A stretch of 64,000 nt of DNA, taken from assembly GCF_030551755.1 (NCBI RefSeq), contig NZ_JAUPEC010000001.1, positions 124,001-188,000 of the forward strand. Direction: 5' to 3'. Below are positions 3,562 to 34,227 of this stretch, piece after piece (the first letter of the stretch is position 1; every line of letters begins with the position of its first letter). Below the pieces are notes generated by a model, which was given only the letters and a program-made list of their open reading frames with translations, had not been told where the DNA came from and did not search any database. The DNA is from Pseudocolwellia sp. AS88. GTDB lineage: Bacteria > Pseudomonadota > Gammaproteobacteria > Enterobacterales > Alteromonadaceae. The translations under genes were made by a program, and so were the position numbers.

Positions 3562-5109
3562 ATGACAGACGATATGTTAACGGAAGACACCGAACATAAA
3601 CTAACTTTAAGACATTTAACTCTTGAAGATTATGATTATGTAAAAGACCTAATGGATGCTGTTTATCCTGGTTTAGGTGGCGCTTGGCCGAAAAATAAAT
3701 TTAGAGCTCAACTTAAAGTTTTTCCGGATGGACAAATTTGTATTGAAGACCATGGTGTTGTCGTTGCTGCAGCCTTTAGTGTTATTGTGGATTACGATAA
3801 GTTTGGTGATCAACATACTTATGATGAAATTACTGGAGACGCTTATTTAACAACACATGATCCATTAGGCGATGTGTTGTATGGCGTTGATGTTTTTGTA
3901 TCACCAGATTATAGAGCTATGCGTTTAGGACGACGACTCTATGAAGCACGTAAAGAAATCTGCCAAAACCTGAACTTAAAATCAATAGTTGCAGGCGGCA
4001 GGATACCAAGATACAAAGATCATGCCGCTAACTTAACACCGCAAGCTTATATTGAAAAAGTTAAACGAAAAGAGTTATATGATCCGATTCTTACCTTTCA
4101 ATTATCTAACGAATTTGAAGTTAAGCGTGTATTAAAAAATTACTTGCCAGAAGATGAAGAGTCTCATGGTTATGCAACTTTGCTTGAATGGACAAACCTT
4201 TATTACGATCCTGACAAAGCTCCGTTAATTGGTGCTGCTAAAACCACAGCTCGTGTAGGTTGTGTGCAATGGCAAATGCGTCCATTTTCTTCTGTTGAAG
4301 AGCTGTCACAACAGGTTGAGTTTTTTATTGATGCCTTATCTGATTATCAATGTGATTTAGCGTTATTTCCAGAATTCTTTAATGCGCCACTTATGGGGAT
4401 TGAGAACCATCAAACCTCTATTGCGGCGATTAAGGCATTGGCCGAATACAGTGTTGAAATTGTCGAAGTTATCTCAAAATTAGCAGTATCATATAACATA
4501 AACGTAATTGCTGGCTCTATGCCTGTGATCGAAAATGATGAACTTTTTAATGTTTCTTATTTATGTCGTCGTGACGGTACAATTGACTCGCAATATAAGA
4601 TCCATGTTACACCACACGAAAAACGTGCCTGGATTATGCAAGGTGGTAACGAGCTAAAAGTATTTGATACTGACTTTGGCAGAATAGGAATTTTGATTTG
4701 TTATGATATTGAGTTCCCTGAACTAGGACGCTTATTGTCAGAGCAAGGTGTGCAGATTTTATTTGTACCTTTTTGGACAGATACAAAAAATGGTTACTTA
4801 AGAGTGAGGTGTTGTGCACAAGCACGCGCAATAGAAAATGAATGTTACGTTGCTATTGCGGGTAGTGTGGGTAACTTACCAAAAGTAGATGGTGCTGACA
4901 TACAATATGCTCAATCAGCGGTTTTCTCTCCATCGGATTTTTCGTTTCCACACGATGCAATTATGGCTGAAACAACTCCTAATACCGAAATGACCATTAT
5001 TGTTGATTTGGATTTAGATAAACTAAACAAACTACAAAATGAAGGTTCAGTAAGAAACTATTTAGATCGACGACGTGATCTTTATAAAATAGGTTGGATA
5101 GGAGACTAG
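3562..5109 (+). CDS. Bifunctional GNAT N-acetyltransferase / carbon-nitrogen hydrolase
   Basis: A fusion of two enzyme folds. Residues 1 to about 190 form a GNAT acetyltransferase domain (LTLEDYDYVKDLMDAVYP; acetyl-CoA loop region RLGRRLYEARK). Residues about 228-510 form a nitrilase-superfamily amidase with the full triad: Glu271 in LFPEFFNAPL, Lys346 in SQYKIHVTP and Cys380 in ILICYDIEFPE. The 515-aa length and domain order match the known two-domain family (Bacillus YhcX type), whose substrate is not established; acetylation coupled to amide hydrolysis is inference. The ATG at 3562 follows GAGAAAAAT. The gene is probably monocistronic, with a hairpin terminator about 60 bases downstream. 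Neighbours give no pathway clue. Confidence 0.93.
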   Translation: MTDDMLTEDTEHKLTLRHLTLEDYDYVKDLMDAVYPGLGGAWPKNKFRAQLKVFPDGQICIEDHGVVVAAAFSVIVDYDKFGDQHTYDEITGDAYLTTHDPLGDVLYGVDVFVSPDYRAMRLGRRLYEARKEICQNLNLKSIVAGGRIPRYKDHAANLTPQAYIEKVKRKELYDPILTFQLSNEFEVKRVLKNYLPEDEESHGYATLLEWTNLYYDPDKAPLIGAAKTTARVGCVQWQMRPFSSVEELSQQVEFFIDALSDYQCDLALFPEFFNAPLMGIENHQTSIAAIKALAEYSVEIVEVISKLAVSYNINVIAGSMPVIENDELFNVSYLCRRDGTIDSQYKIHVTPHEKRAWIMQGGNELKVFDTDFGRIGILICYDIEFPELGRLLSEQGVQILFVPFWTDTKNGYLRVRCCAQARAIENECYVAIAGSVGNLPKVDGADIQYAQSAVFSPSDFSFPHDAIMAETTPNTEMTIIVDLDLDKLNKLQNEGSVRNYLDRRRDLYKIGWIGD

Positions 5110-5168
5110 TCTGAAGGGAGGCTAGTTTGCATCTTAATGTGACTTTATTTTAAAGATCGAGTATCTGT

Positions 5169-5210
5169 AGATCAGTTAGACGAATATATACTTGGTTAAC
5201 TGATCTTTTA
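5169..5210 (+). terminator. Rho-independent terminator after the GNAT/nitrilase gene
   Basis: Perfect 10-bp stem AGATCAGTTA (5169-5178) / TAACTGATCT (5197-5206) followed by TTTT on the plus strand. Confidence 0.75.
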
Positions 5211-5250
5211 ATAGATAGCTTGTTACAGTCATTTAGACATTATATGATTA

Positions 5251-5296
5251 AACTTATTTAAACTTATTTAAACTTATTTAAACTTATTTAAACTTA
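5251..5296. repeat. Tandem repeat of a 10-bp unit (AACTTATTTA), 4.6 copies
   Basis: Four exact head-to-tail copies of AACTTATTTA at 5251-5290, then AACTTA to 5296. The array ends 23 bases before the pilin start codon, in the promoter/leader region, so a change in copy number would alter promoter spacing. Confidence 0.95.
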
Positions 5297-5319
5297 GGTG
5301 AATTGAAGGCGTATTACCT

Positions 5320-5868
5320 ATGAAAACTAAAACTATGAATAAAACCAAAAATATAGGGCACATATCAAAAGGTAATGGATTTACCCTAATAGAATTAGTT
5401 GTTGTTATTGTTATATTAGGAATTTTGGCTGCTACAGCTGCTCCCAAATTTATAGATTTAACAGGAGATGCTAACGAATCTGTACTAAATAGCCTAGCTG
5501 GCACTATGAGATCTAGTGGGCAATTGGTTTATACCAAATCAATTATACAAGGGCTACATAATGAAGCTACGGGTGAAGTTGATTTAGATGGTGACGGTAC
5601 AACCGATATTTCGACTAAATATGGTTACCCTAACGCACATAGATCTGAAGGTATCATAAATGCGTTAGATATTTCAGAAGATGATTGGACTTGGTCTGGA
5701 AATGGTTCCAATAATGTTTTTTTTATCACGACTGCTTCTTTAGGTAAAACGAATGGACAATATGTAAATACAGTTAATATATTAGCTTCCAATTGTTATG
5801 TTACTTATACAGGAGCAACAAGCGCTGGTGAATCAGCTGTAGTTGAAGTTATTAATACTGGATGCTAG
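5320..5868 (+). CDS. MSHA-type type IV pilin-like protein (prepilin)
   Basis: A class III signal peptide is clear. The 20-residue basic leader ends in KGNG and is followed by FTLIELVVVIVILGILAATA, with Phe at +1 and Glu at +5, as a prepilin peptidase substrate requires. The mature part has features of MshA-like pilins: an Ala-rich helix, a VDLDGDGTTD segment, a GYP motif, and two C-terminal cysteines (ASNC and the terminal NTGC) that can form the usual disulfide loop. Pilins assemble into an inner-membrane-anchored fibre through PilD- and MshE-type machinery, none of which is nearby, so this is an orphan subunit gene. The ATG at 5320 is preferred (GAAGG upstream); a second ATG at 5335 lacks a binding site. 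Major, minor or pseudopilin status cannot be decided here. Confidence 0.9.
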   Translation: MKTKTMNKTKNIGHISKGNGFTLIELVVVIVILGILAATAAPKFIDLTGDANESVLNSLAGTMRSSGQLVYTKSIIQGLHNEATGEVDLDGDGTTDISTKYGYPNAHRSEGIINALDISEDDWTWSGNGSNNVFFITTASLGKTNGQYVNTVNILASNCYVTYTGATSAGESAVVEVINTGC

Positions 5869-28218: not shown

Positions 28219-29919
28219 CTATAAGTATTTCTTTTCTAATTCTTCTGCAGGTAAAGGTTTATCAAAAAAATAGCCTTGCATTTTATCTACATTCAAATTT
28301 TTACAGAAGTTTAAATCACTTTCTGTTTCAACACCTTCAGCAACAATTTCAAGCTCTAAAGATTGGATCATTACCACTAAGCCTGTGAGTAATTGTTTTA
28401 CTTTTTCTTTAGATGTTGCATTTGGCATTAGTGATTTATCTATTTTTACAATATCTATCGGAAAACTATGCAAATGTGATAATGATGAAAAACCTGTACC
28501 AAAATCATCGAGTGAAATCTTACAGCCTAAGTCACTTAATCCTTGAATAACTTTCTCTGTTTTATCTGGCTCTACAATTAACGCTGTTTCTGTTAATTCT
28601 AATTCAATTAAATGTGCTGGGACTTTATATTGATTCAGACAATTGCTGATGAAATCAAGTAGGTATTCATCTGTTAGTTGGCGTGAAGATAAATTAATTG
28701 CCATGGTCATAGGCACAAGACGACTTTGATTCCAGTAACTTAGCTGTTTTATGGCTTCTTGCAAAACCCATTTACCAATTTCAATAATTAAACGTGACTT
28801 TTCAGCTATAGGAATAAAGGTGTCTGGGCTGATCATTTCACCGTCTAGATTCCAACGAATAAGTGCTTCAACACCAGTTAGTTGTTCGGTTGTTGAATCG
28901 ATTACGGGTTGATAATTTAAATAAAAGTTGTTGTTATTAATGGCTGTTTTTAATTGGTCTTCAATAGTGAAGTGAGCTAAAAATTCTTTTTGCATTTCTT
29001 CTTCAAAAAATGAAAATTGACTACGGCCTTTGTTTTTAGCTTTGTACATTGCTATGTCAGCAAATTTAAATAATTCTTTCGTATCTGTACTATCCCAAGG
29101 ACAAATAGCTATACCAATGCTTGCTCCTGAACGAATAGAATGTTTATCAATAATAATGGGTTCATTTAATGAGTTAATAATGCGTTGGGCAACAATGCTT
29201 GCACCATTCACAGATGTTAAGTGCTTTAATGTAATTGCAAATTCGTCACCGCCTAATCTTGCGAAAACTTCATTGCCTCGTAAGCAACCACTTATTCTTT
29301 TAACGACTTCAATAAGGAGCTGATCACCAATATCATGTCCAAAATTGTCGTTTACATATTTAAAATGATCTAGATCGATTAAGAGCAATGCAAGAATCGT
29401 ATGGTCTCTTTGGTGGCTTTTTATATCTCTTATTAAAGCTTCATCAAAAAAATACCGATTAGATAAACCCGTTAAACTATCGTGCTCTGAAAGTTTTTTG
29501 GTGTACTGATAACTTTGGTATAACTCTTTTTCAAGATCTGAACGAGCTTGAGCATTAATAATTGCTCGTTGTAATCTGAAGGCGTTTATTTCATTTTTTA
29601 CTAAAAAGTCTTGCGCGCCCGCATTAATACAATTAAGAGCTAATTCATCTTCCTTTGACGTACTCATCATAATCACGGCGATATTATGCCTTTTGGGGGC
29701 GTCTTTTAACTCCAATAATAATTCAATACCGTTTCTTTGCGGAAGATTGTAATCTAGTAAAACTGTATCAAAAGATGCGTTACTTAACTGGGTAAGTGCA
29801 TCATCTATTGATTCAACTTCAGTAATTTTGCAGGTAATATTACTGCGTTTAAGAGTTCTTTTTATTAGTTCTCTATCAACAAGATCGTCATCAACGATTA
29901 ATACATTCATCTGTTGCAA
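28219..29919 (-). CDS. Response regulator with GGDEF and EAL domains (REC-GGDEF-EAL)
   Basis: A 566-aa cyclic-di-GMP signalling protein. Its receiver domain (1-125) has the acidic pair in VDDDLVD, phospho-acceptor Asp in TVLLDYNLPQ and the signature Lys in DFLVKNE. A GGDEF domain (about 145-305) has an intact RLGGDEFAI active loop. An EAL domain (about 320-560) has EALIRW, NLSSRQL, ELTE, DDFGTGFSSL, IDKSL and a VAEGVET segment. Both catalytic motifs are intact, so synthase, phosphodiesterase or both are possible. It is the last gene of a three-gene signalling operon, 77 bases after the single-domain regulator, and is probably phosphorylated by the CHASE kinase. Confidence 0.95.
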   Translation of the reverse strand: MQQMNVLIVDDDLVDRELIKRTLKRSNITCKITEVESIDDALTQLSNASFDTVLLDYNLPQRNGIELLLELKDAPKRHNIAVIMMSTSKEDELALNCINAGAQDFLVKNEINAFRLQRAIINAQARSDLEKELYQSYQYTKKLSEHDSLTGLSNRYFFDEALIRDIKSHQRDHTILALLLIDLDHFKYVNDNFGHDIGDQLLIEVVKRISGCLRGNEVFARLGGDEFAITLKHLTSVNGASIVAQRIINSLNEPIIIDKHSIRSGASIGIAICPWDSTDTKELFKFADIAMYKAKNKGRSQFSFFEEEMQKEFLAHFTIEDQLKTAINNNNFYLNYQPVIDSTTEQLTGVEALIRWNLDGEMISPDTFIPIAEKSRLIIEIGKWVLQEAIKQLSYWNQSRLVPMTMAINLSSRQLTDEYLLDFISNCLNQYKVPAHLIELELTETALIVEPDKTEKVIQGLSDLGCKISLDDFGTGFSSLSHLHSFPIDIVKIDKSLMPNATSKEKVKQLLTGLVVMIQSLELEIVAEGVETESDLNFCKNLNVDKMQGYFFDKPLPAEELEKKYL

Positions 29920-29996
29920 CGGGACTCCAATTCTATTGTGATTTAGTTAATTTTATCATAGTGTTAAAAGGAAATACTTTAATGTTATGTAAAGTT

Positions 29997-30419
29997 TTAT
30001 TTAGGTAAACGAACAACTTTCCAGTAACTATCTAAGACATTAATAATGTCTAAGAACTGTTCGCCCGACTTTCCTTTAACAAAATATCCCGCTATTTGCT
30101 GACGATAACTCGATATCATGTCTTCTTCTGATTCTGAGGTCGTTAACACAAAAACTACAATATCAGATAATTCATCATCTGCACGTAGTGCTTTTAAAAA
30201 CTCAATTCCGCCCATTCTTGGCATTTGTAAATCAAGTAAAATGATTAGTGGACGTGAAATTTTATTACTTTTTAATAATTCTAAAGCTTCTATTCCATCA
30301 TAAGCTCGCACAATCTCATTCGATATTCGCTGCTTTAAAAAGTTTCTCTTAATCATCATGGCATCTATATCATCATCTTCTACGAGTAATAAAGTTACCT
30401 CATCAGTATCATCAGCCAT
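29997..30419 (-). CDS. Single-domain response regulator (Rcp1/CheY-like)
   Basis: A 140-aa receiver domain alone: acidic cluster LLLVEDDDIDAMM, phospho-acceptor Asp in ILLDLQMPRMGG, Thr/Ser in FVLTTSESEED and the Lys in GYFVKGKSGEQF. This long-loop, output-free type is typical of Rcp1-like regulators paired with phytochrome-like kinases. The ATG at 30419 follows AAGGAAAAGAAT and is preferred over a TTG at 30440. It lies 38 bases downstream of the CHASE histidine kinase and upstream of the REC-GGDEF-EAL gene, suggesting a phosphotransfer intermediate or sink. Confidence 0.93.
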   Translation of the reverse strand: MADDTDEVTLLLVEDDDIDAMMIKRNFLKQRISNEIVRAYDGIEALELLKSNKISRPLIILLDLQMPRMGGIEFLKALRADDELSDIVVFVLTTSESEEDMISSYRQQIAGYFVKGKSGEQFLDIINVLDSYWKVVRLPK

Positions 30420-30457
30420 ATTCTTTTCCTTGTTTATCAACGAAGTTTACAAGAATA

Positions 30458-32209
30458 TTAATTTTTTTTCCAAAATATTAGTATTCTTGTTCCACGTTTA
30501 CCATCTGAATGTATCATCACGCTTCCTTGGTAGTGAGTGACTATTTTTTTGATCATAGATAAGCCCATACCACTACCTTCTACTTTGTCTCTTGGTTTTA
30601 ACGTTTGAAACATTTCCATCGCTTTTTCATGAAACTCTTCTGGTATGCCTGGTCCATCATCTTCTACGGTAATAATATGAAAGTCATTTCCTTGTTCATA
30701 AGAGATGATTATAGTCCCATTTTCTTTATCATGATGTTTAATTGAATTTGAAAGTAAATTTCTTAATACAATTTCAAAAGGTACTTCTGGAATTGTAATG
30801 TTGATATCTGGTGCAATGATGTTGAATCCACTAGGTATATCGAGCAATTTATCTAAATCTTTAGTCATTTCTTTAAGATTGATCGATATACTTTTAAATT
30901 CAGTTCGGTTAATACGTGAGTAATCAAGTAAATCGTTGAGTAATTTCATCATACGATCACTTCGTTGAGTTAAAATATCTAAGTGATTTTTGGATTCTTC
31001 AGGGATGATATCTATACAGTCTTCTCTTACCCAGCCAACCAGTTGTTTTATTGCATTTAAAGGTGACTTTAGGTCGTGAGAAGCGACATAAGAAAACTGT
31101 TCTAGGTCTTTATTCGATTTCTCTAAATGTTTGGTTTTAGTCTCTAGGGATGAATTTATCCTATCAGCATAATCAAGCGCGAGTCTGTTAGCTCTTGATA
31201 AAAAGAGAAAAAGTCCAAGTAGCATAGAGTCTATAAACAACCCCCCAATTAATATATATGAAGATTGATTCGCGGTTGATTCATTTCTAAAACTTAAATT
31301 TGATTGAATAGAAAAACTCCAAACACGACCATTTAGTTTGATATCAATTTGTTTTGTAAATAATGGGGTATTATCAAAATCTGTTAAGCTTTTATTATCT
31401 TTGTCGTCGTAAAGTATGTCTCCCGAATCTGTTATCTTAATACTTACTTGTCTATTTTTTTCGGCCAAGGTACCTTGCATTAAGTTTTTCATAATAAAAG
31501 GTGCATAAACAACACCTTCAATTAAATCTCTTCGTTCATCTATGCTTTTGGGTTTACTCCCATTTTTATAAAAAGGAGTATAAAACAAAAATCCCGGTGT
31601 TTTCTTAGCGTCTTGAACTAAAGTTATAGGCCCCGTTAGTTGGGCTTCTCCTGTATCTCTAGCTTTCTTAACTGAGGAATATCTATTTGTTTCAAATGCC
31701 ATATCAAGACCAACAGCCATTTTGTTTGGCGCTACGGGTTCAATGTATGTAATTGGCCAATATTCAGATTCAGTATGGTTTGGGTGTATTTTATAGTTGG
31801 GTCTATATTGTCGTTGTTCATCTAAATAGCTATTTAGTTGATCAGGCTTAATATTATATATAATACCTATGCCATTTATCCCTGGATAAGTTAGATCTAT
31901 TTTTAGACTGTTTGCATATAAAGCCCAGCGAGGTTGGGTTATTTCTGTTTCAACAGAGTCTATATAGGCAACGCCACTCCAAAGTGCGTTTTCATAAAGC
32001 TTCATTCTTTCTTTTACTAAATTGACGACTTGTTCCGCATTTCGTTCAAATTTAGCTTCAAGTTTTTGGTTTAATTGTGATTTTGAATAATACCAAGCGA
32101 TTAATGTAATAACGATTGAGAGGACCACAATAAGCCAATGTACTAGATGCATTTGGCCTGCTTTTAGTAATTTTTCTCTTTCTTCGTGGATATTTTTCGG
32201 ATCAAGCAT
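30458..32209 (-). CDS. CHASE-domain sensor histidine kinase
   Basis: A 583-aa inner-membrane kinase. TM1 (about 22-45, HWLIVVLSIVITLIAWYY) is followed by a periplasmic CHASE domain (about 70-300; core GINGIGIIYNIKPDQL, TYIEPVAPNKMAVGLDM, GFLFYTPFY). After TM2 (about 318-340) come HisKA with His in YVASHDLKSPLNAI and an ATPase domain (LRNLLSNSIKH, EDDGPGIPEE, GSGMGLSMIKKIV). The SHDLKSPLNAI H-box is the phytochrome-like type that pairs with Rcp1-like regulators. The ATG at 32209 and TTG at 32212 are equivalent options. First gene of the operon with the two regulators. CHASE ligands are usually small extracellular molecules; this one is unknown. Confidence 0.94.
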   Translation of the reverse strand: MLDPKNIHEEREKLLKAGQMHLVHWLIVVLSIVITLIAWYYSKSQLNQKLEAKFERNAEQVVNLVKERMKLYENALWSGVAYIDSVETEITQPRWALYANSLKIDLTYPGINGIGIIYNIKPDQLNSYLDEQRQYRPNYKIHPNHTESEYWPITYIEPVAPNKMAVGLDMAFETNRYSSVKKARDTGEAQLTGPITLVQDAKKTPGFLFYTPFYKNGSKPKSIDERRDLIEGVVYAPFIMKNLMQGTLAEKNRQVSIKITDSGDILYDDKDNKSLTDFDNTPLFTKQIDIKLNGRVWSFSIQSNLSFRNESTANQSSYILIGGLFIDSMLLGLFLFLSRANRLALDYADRINSSLETKTKHLEKSNKDLEQFSYVASHDLKSPLNAIKQLVGWVREDCIDIIPEESKNHLDILTQRSDRMMKLLNDLLDYSRINRTEFKSISINLKEMTKDLDKLLDIPSGFNIIAPDINITIPEVPFEIVLRNLLSNSIKHHDKENGTIIISYEQGNDFHIITVEDDGPGIPEEFHEKAMEMFQTLKPRDKVEGSGMGLSMIKKIVTHYQGSVMIHSDGKRGTRILIFWKKN

Positions 32210-32566
32210 CAATTCTATATCTCTTATTATTCCTTTAGTTAACTATAGCGGTTAATTATAACTTTACCGATAAAATATTTATTTTTTTGGGATAAATAAA
32301 TTTTGATTGATAACTCAAGTGTTTGATTAGTTTGTTGGTATTAATATATTGATTTTAATAATAGATGGTTTTTAAAAAGAGGAGAATTTAGTATTGATAC
32401 ATTATTCTGATTTATTTAATTATTTATAATGAGTTATTAAATTAAAGTCAGATGTTTGTGCTACAGAGGTGAAATAATATTAAAAGTTAAGGGGTGTTTA
32501 TTGCTTTGAAATAGACAAATCTAATTAAACACCTTCTTAAAAATATCTTAGTGATTAAAGTATATT
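32210..32566. other. Intergenic region, 357 bp, no gene seen
   Basis: AT-rich. One long-loop inverted repeat GGTGTTTA (32493-32500) / TAAACACC (32526-32533) lies downstream of the small secreted-protein gene and may end its transcript. The rest is presumed promoter space for the kinase operon. Confidence 0.45.
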
Positions 32567-33025: not shown

Positions 33026-33484
33026 TTAATTGAGTGATTTCTGTAATTCTTCAAGTTTGACTTTTTGGTCATTGATCAGTTTTATGTATGTTTTGTCAGT
33101 AGATATTATTTGCTTAGAAATTTCGTTTTGATGGAGTGAGCCCGCTCTATTATTACTTACAGACATAAAATTTGCTTCTAGCTCACTTAACTTGTCATTC
33201 TTTTGCTTAGTTAACGCTTCTATTTTTTTGACTGTTTTTTTTATTTTTTGGGTAACAATGAAGTTTTGCGGATCGTTTGTTATGTTCTCTGAATTTTGGG
33301 TTGAACTTTGTTGACTAGATTTAAAAGATTGTGGTTCATCAACTTCGATTTTTTGTTCGGTATCACCACATGGGATTTGACTAAATGTTGTTGTGCCATC
33401 TATTAAACAGGTGTAAATGTCCGCTGCATCTATGTGATAGTTAAAGCCAAAACTTAATACTAATATTGATAATAATTTACGCAT
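33026..33484 (-). CDS. DUF4124 domain-containing exported protein
   Basis: The N-terminal signal peptide (MRKLLSILVLSFGFNYHIDAA) is followed by a DUF4124 module (DIYTCLIDGTTTFSQIPCGD), a short Cys-containing beta unit common in proteobacterial periplasmic proteins. The C-terminal 90 residues form a basic/acidic coiled coil (VTQKIKKTVKKIEALTKQKNDKL..., KVKLEELQKSLN). The function is unknown. The start is uncertain: ATG at 33484 gives a normal signal length, while ATG at 33523 would add 13 residues; both have purine-rich sequence very close to the codon. Confidence 0.75.
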   Translation of the reverse strand: MRKLLSILVLSFGFNYHIDAADIYTCLIDGTTTFSQIPCGDTEQKIEVDEPQSFKSSQQSSTQNSENITNDPQNFIVTQKIKKTVKKIEALTKQKNDKLSELEANFMSVSNNRAGSLHQNEISKQIISTDKTYIKLINDQKVKLEELQKSLN

Positions 33485-33735
33485 TCCTGTCGTTATCTCG
33501 TTATTCCGTTTGTTGTCAATCATACCTTAACTTTAGCTATATTAATAAATTTTCCATCACGCCTATTAGTTTTGTGAGACATTGTCCCTAAATACGTAGG
33601 TTAACGATGTAAATATAGATGATTTTGTCTGGGGCTTTATTGTAACTTATTGTTTAATAGTGTTAAGTTTGTTTTTTTATATAGAGGACAAGGTTTTTTT
33701 TATTTGTACCTAGTAGGTAAAATATCAAAACTCTT

Positions 33736-33741
33736 TAATAT
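33736..33741 (+). promoter_or_regulatory. Putative -10 box (TAATAT) for the CsrB-like RNA
   Basis: TAATAT lies about 10 bases before the first GGA motif and would give a start near 33748-33750. No good -35 box is seen at 17 bp, so an activator may be needed. A TGTGAGAC sequence at 33573-33580 is a weak candidate for the upstream GacA/UvrY site. Confidence 0.35.
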
Positions 33742-33747
33742 TGTTTT

Positions 33748-33934
33748 TGTCAGGACGACATAGGATTTAAGAAAAAGCAGGAGCTTTTACCCACGGAAGG
33801 TTTAAGGATAAGTCGGGAAGACTTGCAGTATATGGATGTTGCTAGGATGCTAGGGAAAATAACTCTTCAGGAAGAAGTATTAGCAAGGATAGGCTTACAT
33901 TAAATAAAAATACGACTTCGGTCGTATTTTTTTT
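33748..33934 (+). ncRNA. csrB: Candidate CsrB/RsmB-family small RNA (CsrA-sequestering)
   Basis: A non-coding stretch of about 185 bases with eleven GGA motifs in 140 bases (at about 33752, 33763, 33780, 33795, 33806, 33816, 33834, 33845, 33854, 33870 and 33887), closed by a strong UUCG-loop terminator. Several GGA motifs fall in small hairpin loops, for example AGTC-GGGAA-GACT, ACC-CACGGAA-GGT and AGC-AAGGATAG-GCT. This density and arrangement is the hallmark of CsrB/CsrC/RsmY-type RNAs, which titrate the translational regulator CsrA under GacS/GacA (BarA/UvrY) control. The start is inferred from a TAATAT box and is good to about five bases. Assignment by pattern, without a covariance search. 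Confidence 0.8.
33906..33934 (+). terminator. Terminator of the CsrB-like RNA
   Basis: Stem ATACGAC (33910-33916) with UUCG tetraloop (33917-33920) and GTCGTAT (33921-33927), extended by A/T pairs and running into a long T-tract to 33934. Confidence 0.93.
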
Positions 33935-34038: not shown

Positions 34039-34227
34039 ATGTCTACTTCACATTCAGATCAAATAAATTATGACGAAGAAATGAGTGAATTTTCTGCTTT
34101 TGAAATGAAAGAAAATAGTAAAAAGCGTGATAAACGTCGTAATACTAAAATAATGAAAAAACAGCAACGCTTAAACAAGGATTCAGAGCAGTTTGAAGAC
34201 TATAATATTTATGGTTATGAGCAATAA
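34039..34227 (+). CDS. Small charged hypothetical protein (62 aa)
   Basis: The ATG at 34039 follows AGGA at a six-base distance. The product has an acidic first third (YDEEMSEFSAFEMKE), a strongly basic middle (KKRDKRRNTKIMKKQQRL) and an acidic, Tyr-rich end. It has no signal peptide or membrane segment. The charge layout recalls the short PA3496-type proteins of gammaproteobacteria, but that is only a resemblance. It lies just after the CsrB-like RNA terminator and is probably its own transcript. Confidence 0.6.
   Translation: MSTSHSDQINYDEEMSEFSAFEMKENSKKRDKRRNTKIMKKQQRLNKDSEQFEDYNIYGYEQ

Follow-up and report, generated by a model that had tools for sequence, protein, structure and literature searches.

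The analysed window is a 64 kb stretch of the Pseudocolwellia sp. AS88 genome, in which the intergenic region between flanking open-reading frames ending at 33523 and beginning at 34039 contains a predicted CsrB-type small RNA gene on the forward strand (33748–33934), with a predicted transcript of ~187 nt and 11 GGA triplets, recognised by its Rfam alignment, GGA density, conservation and paired helices. A gene of 165 amino acids lies directly upstream (33026–33523), and downstream, on the same strand as the RNA, a 62 amino acid gene (34039–34227) is followed by a Rieske gene. The predicted RNA ends, 33748 and 33934, fit a −10-like box at 33736–33741 and the end of a T-run. The UUCG terminator described in the initial annotation was recovered by a terminator scan and by conservation as an intrinsic terminator on the forward strand (33906–33934; stem-loop 33906–33931 plus tail), with an 11-pair stem, UUCG loop and U-run, the stem of which also scores on the reverse strand. 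At the sequence level, the predicted transcript has the form of a non-coding, intergenic, terminator-ended RNA. The cyclic-di-GMP and two-component genes that had been invoked as neighbours are present, as GGDEF-EAL, receiver and histidine kinase genes at 28219–32212, but their relevance does not hold up, as they lie at least 1.5 kb away on the opposite strand and so say little about the RNA.

The 11 GGA triplets begin at 33753, 33763, 33780, 33795, 33806, 33816, 33834, 33845, 33854, 33870 and 33887, a span of 137 nt (33753–33889, forward strand), in agreement with the first reading of eleven within 140 bases. Elsewhere in the whole 64 kb window, the runner-up counts per 187 nt were six on the forward and five on the reverse strand, and in 100 simulated 64 kb sequences (first-order Markov) the maxima were six to nine, so that a chance cluster can be ruled out (11 GGA vs. 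a simulated maximum of nine). The RNA therefore resembles CsrB/CsrC/RsmY-type RNAs in carrying many more GGA motifs than chance would supply.

The RNA was found in two of the three genomes of a genus-level search that included AS88 itself, the other being Pseudocolwellia agarivorans QM50; the remaining genome (G001) gave only a terminator-like match, on contig C40, with no GGA cluster on that contig. The AS88 and P. agarivorans RNAs are identical at 162 of 184 positions (88%), compared with 79 of 141 (56%) in the upstream spacer (33590–33730). Conservation of the GGAs in related genomes had been named in advance as a check on the CsrB reading, and here all 33 GGA bases are unchanged, against 100 of 122 other positions in the RNA body (Fisher p = 0.0033), and the terminator (33904–33934) is identical in 31 of 31 bases. 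Synteny is also retained, the 104 amino acid, 62 amino acid, Rieske, signal peptidase and glnS genes all being kept in P. agarivorans, although the 165 amino acid upstream gene had no match at that locus. A longer form of the RNA, with 21 GGA in ~310 nt vs. 182–187 nt, is present in the uncultured isolate N2-207-Z (G005), where a Rieske gene lies ~2 kb downstream and a tblastn search (E 1e-5) found no copy of the 62 amino acid gene in the 10 kb around the RNA. A 36-base 5′ signature, allowing up to three mismatches, occurred in 3 of 295 family genomes, and as the signature is strict this count covers close copies only. Among six loci surveyed through the Rieske gene, one of which was set aside (a Calditrichia MAG with 30 residues matched, in which GGA clusters also occurred), there was no cluster of seven or more GGA within 8 kb either side of the gene in Colwellia polaris, a Colwellia MAG or Cognaticolwellia mytili. 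Weak DNA matches in G001 (C40) and G005 (C5) comprised the terminator hairpin only, with at most four GGA per 190 nt, and were not counted as copies; a match in G021, surrounded by no more than six GGA per 190 nt, lay upstream of the RNA and was likewise discarded; the match in G003 was to that genome's own long GGA-rich locus.

The claim that several GGAs sit in small hairpin loops held up moderately. Five of the 11 fall in loops closed by at least four pairs; the expectation with GGAs fixed is 2.2 (9 of 300 shuffles as high). Under a looser loop count that dropped the opening base of the 5′ hairpin, however, 49 of 500 shuffles were as high, and the folding energy of the whole RNA is unremarkable for this single sequence (z = −0.84). 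The GGA enrichment in hairpin loops, as in CsrB-type RNAs, is thus present but modest, and varies with the counting rule. The individual hairpins, all on the forward strand, were compared in an alignment of three species. The 5′ hairpin (UGUC-AGGAC-GACA, 33748–33760), with a GGA in its loop, has an identical stem in all three, and a motif like it opens many long csrB loci. In the second (AAAAGC-AGGA-GCUUUU, 33773–33788) one pair appears as A-U, G-U and G-C across the three species; in the third (AAGUC-GGGAA-GACUU, 33810–33824) every pair is kept, with one C-G changed to U-G; in the fourth (CUUC-AGGAA-GAAG, 33865–33877) every pair is again kept with two changed on both sides, the alignment to G005 being less certain here. 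In G005 one A-U pair of the terminator helix is replaced by G-C. Counted over these five helices, every cell (75 of 75) forms a pair, and in four pairs both bases have been substituted, a number reached in 15 of 500 shuffles; helices slid along the alignment pair in only 32–55% of cells. As this test uses three sequences, with the helices taken from the window sequence itself, the conservation of the helices across three species is supportive of a CsrB-type RNA, though not strongly so.

Further upstream lies an eroded UvrY/GacA box (TGTGAGACATTGTCCCTA, 33573–33590, forward strand), recognised through alignment with relatives alone, in which the left half is intact and the right half degenerate. 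Scored over the 12 positions of the consensus TGTAAGN6CTTACA it matches eight and begins 180 bases before the first GGA; a 9/12 site occurs at −239 and the shuffled upstream region reaches nine in 24% of cases, so the half-box alone would not stand out. The equivalent box matches 10/12 at −179 in P. agarivorans and 11/12 at −192 in G005, the box-to-first-GGA spacing being 12–13 bases shorter than in G005, about one turn of DNA. Of the family's long-type csrB loci, 12 of 14 possess a box of at least 10/12 at −181 to −195 before the first clustered GGA, the remainder being G024, with its box at −322, and G019, which has none. The UvrY box of E. coli csrB is reported as centred at −183/−182 from the start (PMC4682653). 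The −10-like hexamer TAATAT (33736–33741, forward strand) aligns with TAATATT-like boxes of other csrB loci; it was not called by a generic sigma-70 scan, and no sigma-70 site came from it on the forward strand. A profile of the −10 box and 5′ hairpin found its best match in the 64 kb window at 33736–33765 (E = 6.5e-4; next E = 3.5), an E-value that is conditional on the choice of 9 of 17 csrB loci from which the profile was built. The three short-type loci (the window, the short RNA of G002, and G005a) were omitted, and G004, G013, G019, G024 and G025 were left out by eye, the first clustered GGA lying outside a TGTCAGGA-type hairpin, although G000b was kept and its hairpin differs too. In a GGA-cluster scan of the 17 loci, G003b and G032b were without a cluster of eight or more. 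As the right half of the box is eroded, control by BarA-UvrY may differ, and the promoter sequence suggests that activation of the short RNA is probably weaker or altered. Other UvrY-like boxes in G000 and G005 had no cluster of seven or more GGA in the examined flanks, including two strong UvrY-type boxes at G005:C18:35328-35345 (L107) and G005:C3:23436-23453 (L110); it is possible that the G005 boxes mark direct target genes of UvrY.

The unchanged GGAs and terminator beside a spacer of 56% identity, together with paired substitutions that keep the stems, indicate a selection-like pattern. This bears directly on the possibility that the locus is a decaying csrB copy, once a longer RNA comparable to that of G005, from which much of the body and half of the UvrY box have since gone, with no significant expression or function left. 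Its length relative to G005, the eroded box and the lack of a copy seen in same-genus G001 would be expected of such a copy, yet neither the GGAs nor the terminator has changed since divergence from P. agarivorans, and the stems are preserved by paired substitutions, which together make decay improbable. We give far less credence to a translated small open-reading frame across the RNA: in both Pseudocolwellia genomes one frame does stay open along almost the entire RNA body, but its first half lacks any ATG, GTG or TTG, it meets an early stop in G005, and it has accumulated 15 replacement vs. 2 silent codon changes, which rules out a conserved small peptide. Similarly, a leader or attenuator of the 62 amino acid gene or the Rieske gene, rather than a free RNA, is very hard to credit in spite of the shared strand and a terminator ~100 bases before the next open-reading frame, and was rejected on the gene arrangement of G005, where the RNA occurs without the 62 amino acid gene and with the Rieske gene at a distance, and because the RNA has the form of other csrB loci.

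A search with the Rfam CsrB model, which the initial annotation had proposed, gave a divided answer. The best permissive match in a 431-base stretch was RF00018 (CsrB), aligned end to end over model positions 1–356 (31.2 bits, E = 5e-7; E = 1.2e-6 in a whole-genome search), but this falls short of the gathering score of 71 bits, and no Rfam family reached its gathering threshold anywhere in the 64 kb window. Weak RF00018 matches are not specific either: of 14 control genomes, 2 (including Bacillus subtilis) gave one at E ≤ 1 and 8 did so at E ≤ 10. Within the same family the model exceeded its cut-off in none of 35 genomes (G000–G034), the 9 of 59 searched genomes in which it did so all belonging to other families in the order, and in a permissive scan of four 10 kb loci (E ≤ 0.001) it reported L040 and L042 and missed the 21-GGA RNA of L041 and the 35-GGA RNA of L045. 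Given this poor reach within the family, the missing gathering score says little here.

The host genome encodes csrA, uvrY (gacA) and barA (gacS): csrA has one match (PF02599, 88 bits), and uvrY (NF007018, 382 bits) and barA (NF008318, 1187 bits) each have one match above the curated cut-off. The uvrY match contains one TAA, which we take as the gene's own end as no stop interrupts the frame for 221 residues across the match, and a uvrC-like frame, recognised by eye, follows downstream on the same strand. The CsrB/RsmB-type reading is therefore supported by the significant though sub-threshold full-length Rfam alignment, the conserved GGAs and helices, the csrB-like −10 box and 5′ end, and the presence of csrA, uvrY and barA.

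The genome also contains a second, long csrB of ~390 nt with 20 GGA and a T-run terminator (C1 about 15.78–16.18 kb; L039 about 4781–5180), which lies close to DUF3301, DUF3549 and truC genes, 142 kb from the short RNA; E. coli csrB is also found near truC. The two RNAs are alike in being GGA-rich, in ending at a T-run terminator and in sharing the same promoter plan, but the long csrB is twice the length, has a 12/12 UvrY box and a duplicated module, and occupies a different genomic place. Nucleotide matches between them are scattered and of at most 25 nt (best E = 0.004), and we infer a common origin from the promoter plan and 5′ hairpin. No third convincing csrB was found in the genome by RF00018 or by a UvrY-type box with a nearby GGA cluster, the third RF00018 match (C45, 11.8 bits) being a 36-base fragment taken as chance. 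The module within the long csrB, of ~115 nt, is present twice with 90% identity, and the long csrB of P. agarivorans (L106, reverse strand) likewise holds a module of ~154 nt twice at ~90% identity, which would fit growth of csrB through tandem duplication of modules that bind CsrA. Other csrB-like loci in the family include G003:C11 (L045, reverse strand, 4650–5189 in reverse-strand coordinates), with 35 GGA in ~540 nt and a 12/12 UvrY box, and G004:C1 (L047, reverse strand, 4902–5349 in reverse-strand coordinates), with 31 GGA, several of which were seen by eye to lie in near-identical ~26-nt repeats.

Compared with CsrB/RsmB (RF00018) of E. coli and other Gammaproteobacteria, the short RNA shares a set of GGA motifs, some of them placed in hairpin loops, a terminator, the accompanying csrA, barA and uvrY genes and a putative upstream UvrY box, of which however only half remains, and it differs in this erosion and in its ~187 nt against a 356-position model. 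A literature search found nothing on small RNA in Pseudocolwellia or on CsrB in Colwelliaceae; a 2006 study reportedly predicted CsrB-type genes. Two further papers touch on CsrB and Colwellia together (PMC5471319, PMC7841849). Two csrB genes in one genome are also described for Shewanella oneidensis, where CsrB1 and CsrB2 are reported to be transcribed, UvrY-dependent and equipped with UvrY boxes and CsrA-binding motifs; these are ~420 nt each with one transposase gene between them, unlike the ~187 and ~390 nt RNAs 142 kb apart found here (PMC3171408). Also comparable are the Alteromonadales CsrB-type RNAs with dense GGA, Pf1 of Pseudoalteromonas fuliginea (PMC9927453) and Aln1a-c of Alteromonas macleodii (PMC5864184). 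For Pf1 a putative GacA-binding sequence and CsrA binding are reported, and the database matches given in that report are confined to Pseudoalteromonas (PMC9927453).

Taken together, it is highly likely that 33748–33934 on the forward strand is a CsrB/CsrC-type gene for a CsrA-sequestering RNA, the shorter of two found in the genome. By analogy with the CsrA sponges of E. coli, Shewanella (PMC3171408), Marinomonas (PMC8523701), Alteromonas (PMC5864184) and Pseudoalteromonas (PMC9927453), the RNA is predicted to be transcribed, to bind and sequester CsrA and to be under UvrY control. Its promoter appears to follow the family csrB plan, in which a UvrY box ~180–190 bp upstream would be followed by a −10 box and a 5′ GGA hairpin, and the UUCG intrinsic terminator would end the transcript. 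The ~11 GGA motifs, about half of which lie in the loops of small hairpins, would bind several CsrA dimers, which would thereby be kept off their target mRNAs, freeing those mRNAs. Judged from sequence comparison, the short RNA is best read as a lineage-restricted second CsrB that would sequester CsrA. The gene is very probably real and ordinary in kind, its divergence in promoter and length being mildly interesting.

Both csrB RNAs of this genome fall below the Rfam gathering score, and annotation based on that score would miss both; the same applies more widely, as no csrB of the family reaches it in 35 genomes, yet 12 of those with inspected loci carry a locus dense in GGA whose UvrY box stands at the distance expected. 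More tentatively, and with the balance of probability against it, the short RNA may be a trimmed, lineage-restricted second CsrB whose promoter now lacks half of the UvrY box and roughly a helical turn of the distance between box and promoter, whilst every GGA stayed fixed, leaving a sponge partly uncoupled from BarA-UvrY. If true, such a sponge would let the cell feed a separate signal into CsrA. The pairing of a full box and long RNA with a half box and short RNA in the same genome allows the divergence of duplicated CsrA sponges to be tested.
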